From contig NZ_CP008874.1 in NCBI RefSeq assembly GCF_001011115.1, forward strand, positions 186,001 through 250,000: 64,000 nt of DNA, given 5' to 3'. This document shows positions 37,307 to 47,356 of this stretch, piece by piece. The notes beneath the pieces are model-generated. The model was not told the origin of the DNA. It worked only from the letters and a program-made list of their open reading frames with translations, and ran no database searches. A program made the translations under genes and the position numbers. Numbering within the stretch: the stretch's first letter is position 1; each line of letters begins with the position of its first letter. Source of the stretch: Halanaeroarchaeum sulfurireducens (lineage in GTDB: Archaea > Halobacteriota > Halobacteria > Halobacteriales > Halobacteriaceae).

Positions 37307-37388
37307 GCCGGGATGGCCGAATGGCAAAGCGCACGCCTGGAAAGCGTGTCCCCTTTCGGGGTTCTGGGTTCAAATCCCAGTCCCGGCG
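37307..37388 (+). tRNA. tRNA-Ser (GGA anticodon)
   Basis: Full cloverleaf with a long class II variable arm. The acceptor stem is GCCGGGA/TCCCGGC with discriminator G at 37388. The anticodon stem-loop CACGC-CTGGAAA-GCGTG gives anticodon GGA (codons UCC/UCU). The variable arm is CCCC-TTTC-GGGG, and the T-arm is CTGGG-TTCAAAT-CCCAG. No intron and no encoded CCA. Confidence 0.95.
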
Positions 37389-37407
37389 TCGTTCTCCGAT
37401 CCACTCG

Positions 37408-37511
37408 CACCTTTTTCCCGATCGGGTTTCCTCGCGCCTGCGGCGCTGCGGGAACCTCTCTCGGCAAAAATCTGCACCAAAAACACGCAGCCGCGAGCCT
37501 TCGGCTCGCGG
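37408..37511 (-). repeat. Structured tRNA-flanking element, copy A
   Basis: Read on the minus strand. Hairpin I (37491-37511, CCGCGAGCC-GAA-GGCTCGCGG) is followed by CTGCGTGTTTTTGGTGCAG and ATTTTTGC. A GC-rich hairpin region between GGTT and AACCCGA comes next, and the element closes with AAAAAGGTG. The same order of parts occurs in copy B at 45778-45870. The element ends 20 nt from the 3' end of tRNA-Ser and converges on it. No coding capacity is evident. It may be a non-coding RNA, a terminator-like structure or a mobile repeat. Confidence 0.6.
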
Positions 37512-37853
37512 AACGCGAATCGGTGGACGACCGCACAGCTACGCGGGATTACGGAATATCAAGGAGAAAGCCTCGCGCTTCAGCGCGGGGAGGAAGTCAA
37601 GCGATACCAGACGCGTGCAGCGGGCGAGACGCGAAACGTCCCGGAGACGCGAACGGCGATAGCGCGGTACTCCGGTCCGCGGACCGTTCGAGCGGGCCAT
37701 CGACCCGCGAGAAGAAGCCGTGTGCAAGCGAGCCCGTCTGGTTCTGGGTTCAAATCCCGAGAGACGCGCTACGCTCGTCTCTCGACGTCCCGTTCACCTC
37801 GCTCACTGGCGGTTCGCGGGATTCGCATTTTCGGCGGAGGTCTCGAGCGTCTC
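37512..37853. other. Gene-free repeat region: IS200/IS605-like right-end remnant and tRNA-Ser fragment
   Basis: No credible gene lies here. At 37561-37605, GAGAAAGCCTCGCGCTTCAG and the following GCGGGGAGGAAGTCAAGC form a hairpin (37571-37590). This is how haloarchaeal TnpB (IS1341-type) elements end: one frame reads IKEKASRFSAGRKSS, the usual TnpB terminus. The transposase body is missing. CGGTCCGCGGACCG (37673-37686) is a perfect palindrome. At 37740-37758, 19 nt repeat the tRNA-Ser 3' half, followed by a hairpin with 9-bp arms (CGAGAGACG/CGTCTCTCG). The region looks like a scar of mobile DNA next to a tRNA gene. Confidence 0.55.
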
Positions 37854-45777: not shown

Positions 45778-45870
45778 CCGCGACCGCGATAGCGGTCGCG
45801 GAACGTTTTTAGTCCAGGTTTTTGCGACGAGTGGTTCGCCGGAGGCGAACCCGAGGAGTAAAAAAGTGGA
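45778..45870 (+). repeat. Structured tRNA-flanking element, copy B
   Basis: Hairpin I (45778-45801) has 10 perfect pairs, CCGCGACCGC-GATA-GCGGTCGCGG. It is followed by AACGTTTTTAGTCCAG and GTTTTTGCGACGAGT. Hairpin II (45833-45851) is GGTTCGCC-GGA-GGCGAACC. The tail CGAGGAGTAAAAAAGTGGA follows; its A-run and TGGA can pair back with TCCAGGTTTTT. The same parts in the same order occur in copy A (37408-37511). The element abuts a 23-nt copy of the tRNA-Lys 3' end. Confidence 0.65.
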
Positions 45871-45951
45871 GCGGGCCGGGAGGGAGTTGAACCGAGCCGA
45901 GACGGTCGCTCACTGCGTTCGCGCTGCGTCTCGTCGGGCTCAACTCCCTCC
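45871..45951. repeat. tRNA-Lys 3'-end duplicate inside a large imperfect inverted repeat
   Basis: Positions 45871-45893 are identical over 23 nt to 45989-46011, the 3' end of tRNA-Lys plus one flanking base. The copy is the left arm of an inverted repeat: GGAGGGAGTTGA (45879-45890) pairs perfectly with TCAACTCCCTCC (45940-45951). Pairing continues imperfectly inward (GAGACG against CGTCTC). Confidence 0.85.
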
Positions 45952-45989
45952 ATGGCCGCTTCGCTCCTCACCTTTGTTCGTCGCAGAAG

Positions 45990-46063
45990 CGGGCCGGGAG
46001 GGAGTTGAACCCTCGACCGTCTGGTTAAAAGCCAGACGCTCTCCCTAACTGAGCTACCGGCCC
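45990..46063 (-). tRNA. tRNA-Lys (TTT anticodon)
   Basis: Cloverleaf of 74 nt on the minus strand. The acceptor is GGGCCGG/CCGGCCC with discriminator G. The D-arm contains GCTCAGTTAGGGAGAGC. The anticodon arm TCTGG-CTTTTAA-CCAGA gives anticodon TTT, and the T-arm is GAGGG-TTCAACT-CCCTC. No intron and no encoded CCA. It lies 27 nt from the end of the beta-CASP gene. Confidence 0.95.
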
Positions 46064-46090: not shown

Positions 46091-47356
46091 TTAAACGCTT
46101 TCCTTCCGGACGCCACGCTTCGACGACGCCACCGCGACCGTCTCGCCGGGTGCGGGCGCGCTCGCGTCGAACCCCATGTCCCGGAGATCCGCGGCGAAGC
46201 GTTCGCACTGGTCGCCGTGGTTGACGAACACCGTCGCGTCGCGATAGGATTCGAGGAGCGAGAGCACCCCCGTACGATCGGCGTGCGCGGAGAAGTCGAA
46301 CTGTCGCACACGCGCGCTGACGGGCCTGTGCCGCCCGTCGATCTCGGCGCTCCCCGTTTCGAGGAGGTCCCGACCCGGCGTCCCCTCGACCTGGTAGCCC
46401 GTCATCGCGATGAGGTTGGTCGGATTCCCGGCGACGGCCGGGACGTACGTCATCGCGGGACCACCGGCAAGCATCCCGGCGGTCGTCACGATCACCGTGT
46501 TCTTCGCCGCGATGCGCCGCCGCTGGCCGTCCCGACCGGTGACGAATCGTGCGTGCCCGCTGGCCCGTCGGTATCTCTCTGGATCACGGACAAACGCGGG
46601 TGCGTGCCGCAGACGATCGGTCACTTCGATCCCCATGCCGTCGACGTAGCACTCGATGTCGTTCGACTCACAGAGCAGCATCATTTCCTGTGTTCGACCG
46701 ATGGCGAACGCCGGCACGACGACCGTCCCGCCCCGGTGGACCGTTTCGGTGACTGCTTGGACGAAGGCGTCCTCGATCTCCGAGCGCGGGGGCCGAGTCA
46801 CGTCCGCGTAGGTGCTCTCGACGATCACTGCGTCCGCGGCCGGCCGGGCCGTCGACGGCTCGACGAGGCGCTGGTCTCCGGTATTGAAATCGCCCGTATA
46901 GAGCACTCGGGTGTCACCATCGTCCACGAGGACGTGGGCGCTGCCCGGGATGTGGCCCGCGTCGAACAACGTCACCTCGTAGCCGGCCGCCTGGAAGGAC
47001 TCGCCGTAGGGGTGGGTCACGGAGACCTCGCCGAGGGCCCCGATCTCCGCCCGGGTGAATGGCTGATCGTAGCGATCCCCCTGAATGGAGAGCGTGTCCT
47101 CAGCGAGGAGGGTGGCCAGATCCCGCGTCGCCTTCGTCCAGTGCACGGGCGGTCGTCTGGTTCCCTTGAGCAGGGCCGGCACCATCCCCGTGTGATCGAG
47201 GTGTCCGTGAGAGACGACGACCGCCTCGGGCTCGACATCGGGTGGATAGCGGGAATGGGTCCCGCCGCTCATGCCATAATCGAGCAACAGCGAATCGTCG
47301 ACGAGGACGGCACTACGCCCGACCTCCCGCGCCCCTCCCAGGAACCTGACCCGCAT
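46091..47356 (-). CDS. Beta-CASP metallo-beta-lactamase RNA nuclease (aCPSF2-like)
   Basis: Single-chain MBL/beta-CASP nuclease of 421 residues. The MBL motifs are SHGHLDHTG, AGHIPGSAHVL and YTGDFN. The beta-CASP motifs are VIVESTYAD (A), FDFSAHADRTG (B) and VFVNHGD (C). It lacks the N-terminal KH domains of aCPSF1 and is closest in layout to aCPSF2 (COG1236), a likely RNA processing or decay enzyme. All metal ligands appear intact. Confidence 0.87.
   Translation of the reverse strand: MRVRFLGGAREVGRSAVLVDDSLLLDYGMSGGTHSRYPPDVEPEAVVVSHGHLDHTGMVPALLKGTRRPPVHWTKATRDLATLLAEDTLSIQGDRYDQPFTRAEIGALGEVSVTHPYGESFQAAGYEVTLFDAGHIPGSAHVLVDDGDTRVLYTGDFNTGDQRLVEPSTARPAADAVIVESTYADVTRPPRSEIEDAFVQAVTETVHRGGTVVVPAFAIGRTQEMMLLCESNDIECYVDGMGIEVTDRLRHAPAFVRDPERYRRASGHARFVTGRDGQRRRIAAKNTVIVTTAGMLAGGPAMTYVPAVAGNPTNLIAMTGYQVEGTPGRDLLETGSAEIDGRHRPVSARVRQFDFSAHADRTGVLSLLESYRDATVFVNHGDQCERFAADLRDMGFDASAPAPGETVAVASSKRGVRKESV

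Follow-up and report, generated by a model that had tools for sequence, protein, structure and literature searches.

Hairpin units carrying copies of the host tRNA tail behind tRNA genes of Halanaeroarchaeum sulfurireducens and other haloarchaea

Short repeats that contain part of a tRNA gene have long been known from the tyrT locus of Escherichia coli. There, two direct copies of the tRNA tail (D) enclose a flank, an inverted tail and a GC-rich hairpin, in this order; the arrangement occurs three times with a spacing of 178 bp and is annotated as RttR (rttR/rtT RNA) and tpr. Integron attC and CRISPR arrays consist of identical repeats and variable cassettes, with imperfect hairpins that have conserved mismatches and a variable end. 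In archaea, integrases are also known to target the T-stem loop and 3' end of tRNA genes (PMC8371274), and 22 nt of tRNA-Ala are duplicated at the borders of a Haloquadratum prophage inserted at this gene (PMC3119063).

The locus studied here lies in a window of 64,000 nucleotides from the Halanaeroarchaeum sulfurireducens genome, the whole stretch of DNA that was analysed; its features are listed in Table 1. A preliminary description had reported that one copy of a repeated element of about 100 nt, copy B, ends at 45870 (AAAAAAGTGGA) and is followed directly by a duplicate of the tRNA-Lys 3' end. This is correct, as positions 45871-45893 are identical to 45989-46011 over 23 nt. An inverted copy of the same tail had been overlooked, and together with it the duplicate forms an arm of a hairpin. 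The order along the tRNA strand is tRNA-Lys, h1, I, h2, D, and only after D comes copy B. The tail unit (45871-45988, period 118 bp) thus occupies the space between the tRNA and copy B, and it folds with z = -6.7 relative to shuffled sequences. The resemblance to elements that integrate at tRNA 3' ends, first attributed to the element of about 100 nt, applies to this 118-bp unit and not to the element. A T6 run lies on the minus strand just past D2, within copy B. The two tRNAs of Table 1 are the sole Rfam matches in the window, which has no RtT match. The gene next to tRNA-Lys (46091-47356, minus strand) encodes a beta-CASP/RMMBL metallo-hydrolase, likely an RNA-processing nuclease.

Table 1. 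Features of the tRNA-Lys and tRNA-Ser loci (window positions) and of the alphaproteobacterial tail units (own contig positions)
Feature	Position	Strand	Basis or remark
tRNA-Lys(TTT)	45989-46063	-	ARAGORN; Rfam RF00005, 71.6 bits
D1, tail of tRNA-Lys(TTT), GGTTCAACTCCCTCCCGGCCCGC	45989-46011	-	ARAGORN call
h1, segment separating tRNA-Lys from the inverted tail	45960-45988	-	unit segmentation
I, tRNA-Lys tail copy in inverted orientation, GCGGCCATGGAGGGAGTTGAGCC	45937-45959	-	unit segmentation
h2, type-a hairpin core, GAGACGCAGC...GACCGTCTC	45894-45936	-	model R1, 75.2 bits, E 4.2e-14; covariation
D2, exact 23-nt tRNA-Lys tail copy closing the unit (the duplicate of the preliminary description)	45871-45893	-	
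Copy B of the dispersed hairpin element	45778-45870	+	
Core of copy B, TTTTTAGTCCAGGTTTTTGC	45806-45825		
tRNA-Ser(GGA)	37307-37388	+	ARAGORN; Rfam
Copy A of the dispersed hairpin element	37406-37511	-	core at 37464-37483
Degenerate tail copy 3' of tRNA-Ser (CTGGTTCTGGGTTCAAATCCC context)	37740-37758	+	exact short-word matches to the tRNA-Ser tail
Tail units of an alphaproteobacterial MAG	L232 6527-6720 (JAGOQV010000021.1) and L339		one locus tandem, 100-bp steps

Tail units follow about half of the tRNA genes in this genome and in its relative. Two genomes were compared in full, the present one (G000) and one of the same genus (G147), and a sequence was counted as an own-tail copy if it had at most 4 mismatches in 21 positions and lay no more than 600 nt downstream on the sense strand. 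Such copies were found 3' of 23 of the 44 tRNAs in G000 (34 copies) and of 21 of the 43 in G147 (40 copies). Controls in G000 gave 0 copies upstream, 1 on the antisense strand and 1 with swapped tails; own-tail copies near tRNAs are not due to chance. Arrays contain one to three units in G000 and up to six in G147, each bearing the tail of that very gene, and their general formula is tRNA(D1) - [h1 - I - h2 - D]n, with a median cassette period of 115 bp. R1, a covariance model built from 28 I-h2-D units, has 36 sense matches in its own genome (E ≤ 1e-3), all situated at a tRNA end or up to about 410 nt downstream of it, on the tRNA strand. A different 3' flank, TAATATTTTGTTCAGAGCCAGGTTT, is shared by the array-free tRNA-Thr(TGT), tRNA-Thr(CGT) and tRNA-Cys genes of G000 (L032, L038, L061), and some of this flank is found again 3' of the tRNA-Cys array in G147.

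The limits of the direct copy are sharp. D comprises 22 bases, from tRNA position 52/53 at the edge of the T-loop to the 3' end. Across indices 0-21 the identity between copy and tRNA is 0.91-1.00 (91-93% at index 0, which is position 52, and 100% at index 1, position 53; index 21 is the 3' terminal base), while outside D it is near background just to the left and 0.3-0.6 on the right. The identity block is located inside the tRNA and ends at its 3' end, and the tRNA stays intact. The inverted copy I is less uniform: deviations are very rare in its 11 nt mirroring the T-loop core and more frequent in the acceptor part. A neutral placement test of I (39:16:21) matched it to the tRNA tail 39 times and to its own partner D 16 times; an earlier count of 109:4 in favour of the tRNA tail was biased by alignment to the tail and was discarded.

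The segment between the arms, h2, occurs in several types. Different types can separate identical D copies within one array (L257), and a single type can recur at tRNAs that are unrelated and differ in their tails. Among 113 type-a h2 sequences, Watson-Crick pairing holds in 110 at one of the two outer pairs and in 109 at the other, each pair occurring in three main types; 102 sequences retain a T·T mismatch. This covariation indicates selection on a folded strand, whether RNA or single-stranded DNA. Exceptions to h2 pairing (14 G·U, 8 A·C) do not separate these two forms, and I:D pairs have no excess of G·U except at one position of I.

Comparison of the two species reveals turnover of units. 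Where their tails differ (Lys, Leu-TAG, Arg-CCT, His, Asp and Gly-TCC), D corresponds to the local version. At tRNA-Lys, with AACT in G000 and AAGT in G147, this is true of both D and I; the T-loop part of I reads AGTTGA here and ACTTGA in the other genome, the own tail of each species. The number of units differs at most tRNAs, for example three against one degenerate unit at Ser-TGA, none against two at Leu-GAG, and one against six at Gly-TCC (G000 against G147). At Ser-TGA the older unit adjoins the tail in G147, and two further units with exact D intervene in G000, so that the sister species G147 resembles a pre-insertion state at this tRNA. The unit common to the genus pair is also the outer one of the longer array at Glu-TTC, Gly-GCC, Met and Leu-TAG. 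Strict growth on the tRNA-proximal side, as favoured by this pair, was not borne out as a general rule in a wide survey at a loose 75% identity, in which 28 of 46 pairs had their single shared unit innermost and 13 had it outermost. The outermost D is generally the most decayed; the last D was worse than the first in 35 arrays and better in 1, a pattern that insertion and unequal exchange predict alike.

Among haloarchaea the units are widespread. R1 matches were obtained in 137 of the 147 genomes sampled, in 120 of the 123 high-quality ones and in 51 of 56 genera; at E ≤ 1e-6 the model had no match in 204 genomes of the phylum from outside the haloarchaea. Haloferax sulfurifontis is one of the species that carry units. 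Two haloarchaea with a GC content of about 48% had no tail copy at any of the 22 tRNA calls checked by tail matching, and a third genome lacking an R1 match had one or two tail copies by the same approach at fetched tRNAs. A scan of all species genomes with a generic pattern of inverted and direct T-arms listed 80 loci, of which 76 are haloarchaeal, and 49 of 86 matches contained an exact 21-nt copy of the upstream tRNA's tail; these loci are biased in the T-loop core, and the counts that partly rest on them (own-tail copies, boundaries and I) are to be read beside the G000 and G147 figures. In one alphaproteobacterial MAG, tRNA-Pro(TGG) is followed by a single unit and tRNA-Pro(CGG) by units in tandem, with a D that begins at GGTTC and extends through the encoded CCA. 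The layout is therefore not unique to haloarchaea, and it is far commoner there among the genomes sampled. On a Woesearchaeota MAG contig (L178, DUFX01000036.1), a predicted tRNA-Ser with an intron is followed by a similar unit, with a tail 4 mismatches off. No units were recognized among the matches inspected in viral and plasmid collections, and phage and plasmid BLAST searches with the unit were empty. Three patterns matched 2, 0 and 6 contigs of the viral collection; the two of the first pattern were rejected as units, as they lack an appropriate tRNA next to them and appear to be chance matches. A literature search found no description of tRNA-tail hairpins in haloarchaea, and this order-wide feature appears to be undescribed and unannotated.

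Copies A and B belong to a separate dispersed intergenic hairpin repeat and are not part of the tail units. Both are oriented against their tRNAs, as originally noted; copy A is adjacent to tRNA-Ser, although it starts 17 nt past the tRNA end and not 20 as first given. The degenerate tail copy 3' of this tRNA, at which R1 has no significant match, is probably a relic of a tail unit, judging from its short-word matches. The core TTTTTRGTSCAGRTTTTTGC has 17 genomic copies (≤ 2 mismatches). Eight are located within 700 nt 3' of a tRNA, all convergent, and nine are more than 2.9 kb distant. The association suspected in the preliminary description is thus an enrichment beyond intergenic location (P 3e-11 for the whole genome; about 3e-4 for intergenic DNA only, with an assumed intergenic fraction of 12%), but the element is not tied to tRNAs. 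Of 59 haloarchaeal genomes 25 contain it, and controls gave no match. Haloarchaeal plasmids have it too, between protein genes; flanking orientations are mixed around six plasmid copies, whereas at tRNAs the flanks are convergent. Copy B folds with z = -7.0 relative to shuffles. Its T-runs on both strands (T5 tracts on the plus strand, T6 on the minus strand) make a terminator role for A and B plausible; copy B may perhaps form the transcript end of the tail-unit array. Small dispersed repeats of the REP or MITE type are likewise short, structured, intergenic and present in several copies per genome. A and B differ from these in being enriched and oriented at tRNA ends, and no transposase partner or target duplication was evident for them. 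Three tandem copies of the element with 118-119 bp steps are found 3 kb from tRNA-Arg(TCT) (G000:C1:2041907-2042163), and six tandem 39-bp repeats about 5.6 kb past the same tRNA (L068 9555-9854). A sister form of the element, CCACTTTTT...GCAAAAACGTGGGGAAAAAG, stands behind the last tail copy of the tRNA-Leu(TAA) and tRNA-Leu(TAG) arrays (L058, L051).

To explain the tail units, we tentatively favour the gain of cassettes by recombination at the block from the T-loop to the 3' end, since both limits of this block are fixed, each D is the host's own tail and the region is a known archaeal integrase target. Recombination would take place within the type of block used as attB by tyrosine integrases in tRNA genes. 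Insertion would place a cassette between the tail and the flank, and leave the tRNA intact. Displaced tails would become distal D copies and decay, and recombination of D with D could add, shuffle or delete cassettes. The imperfect hairpin I-h2-D with its T·T mismatch may be the recognition target of a protein, as folded single-stranded DNA or RNA. The tail duplication of the Haloquadratum prophage has the same length as D. Around the tyrosine-recombinase (PF00589) genes checked in two genomes, the only tail copies were tRNA genes and an array, and none were found at prophage ends near integrases. The 118-bp unit contains no integrase gene, and no recombinase was linked to the units. We hold the anatomical description of the units with much more confidence than the mechanism, of which we infer the recombination step, the involvement of any recombinase and the role of the hairpin. 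A bolder extension, which we regard as unlikely, is a dedicated cassette system of haloarchaea, an integron-like array platform built on tRNA genes: almost any tRNA gene would offer its T-loop as the recombination site and the folded, mismatch-bearing hairpin would be the substrate, with a parallel in some bacteria (tyrT, the alphaproteobacterium).

Several other explanations were weighed against recombination. Array dynamics without a dedicated enzyme are possible, though rather doubtful: one duplication of the tail plus flank could be followed by unequal exchange, slippage and gene conversion in polyploid cells, and inverted-repeat correction would keep I similar to the tail. Near-identical tandem units at Leu-TAG, Arg-GCG and Met agree with this, as do the strong divergence of the outermost D and the E. 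coli tyrT repeats, which share the layout and have no known integrase. At Leu-GAG in G147, the tail and flank were duplicated together, a pattern no less compatible with copy-duplication than with integration. However, D is sharply bounded at 52/53 and at the tRNA end while the flanks differ, the same h2 types stand at unrelated tRNAs with different tails, and inverted-repeat correction should erase the T·T mismatch that is so widely kept. An unlikely reading is that the units are cis-acting 3' trailer structures of tRNA transcripts (for termination, for processing or as an rttR-like small RNA) with a selected fold and drifting copy number. The location on the sense strand only, the strong predicted fold, h2 covariation and the small-RNA annotation of the tyrT repeats are consistent with it, and T5 runs occur within 40 nt past the last D in 9 of 48 arrays against 8 of 870 in the background. 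On the other hand, the low-GC haloarchaea without any unit at the tRNAs checked mark it as dispensable, neither the h2 exceptions nor the I:D pairs, outside one I position, give a clear RNA signature, and I resembles the tRNA tail more often than its partner D, so that pairing with D is not clearly maintained.

A cut-and-copy reaction of the Cas1 or casposase kind is very unlikely. Here, hairpin DNA would be inserted at the tRNA tail, which would be duplicated as the target site like a CRISPR repeat; fixed D ends and a D that is always the host's own tail would come free at any tRNA. Target duplication leaves unexplained that I also matches the host tail, tRNA-proximal growth is not general, and no nuclease was linked to the units. 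Scarcely credible is the reading suggested by the preliminary description, in which the element of about 100 nt is small and mobile and duplicated the tRNA-Lys tail when it inserted. Copy B does adjoin D2 exactly, and the element is enriched beside tRNA ends and always convergent there, but the duplicate belongs to a hairpin unit distinct from the element, many tRNAs have tail duplicates and no element, and the nine distant element copies have no tRNA nearby. The element was ruled out as the source of the duplicate because tail units exist without it.

About half of the tRNA genes in both fully examined genomes carry this apparently unannotated, order-wide feature, and partial tRNA tails near haloarchaeal tRNAs should not automatically be taken for provirus scars. 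It makes testable how short tRNA-derived hairpins multiply and why tRNA 3' ends are recombination hot spots. The likeness to integron attC and CRISPR arrays is purely structural: the tail-unit arrays, too, alternate identical repeats with variable cassettes and have imperfect, mismatch-bearing hairpins. Their repeats, in contrast, are host tRNA sequence, no link to an integron integrase or to Cas was found, and no general polarity of gain was seen. With the integrase attachment sites of archaeal proviruses and plasmids the units share a duplicated tRNA 3' end, but they are only about 115 bp long, gene-less and tandem, contain an inverted tail and are found at many different tRNAs. The E. coli tyrT repeats are also tandem, 3' of a tRNA and on the same strand. 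Each has an inverted copy (GGGGAAGGAT) and a GC-rich hairpin ahead of the direct tail copy that begins in the T-loop (AATCCTTCCCCCACCACCA) and closes the repeat, and the same plan is realized in haloarchaea. The two are unrelated in sequence, the D of tyrT has a later start within the T-loop, and in E. coli a single operon is involved, compared with about half of all haloarchaeal tRNA genes. The haloarchaeal units make it testable whether the tyrT puzzle of E. coli is one case of a general phenomenon.
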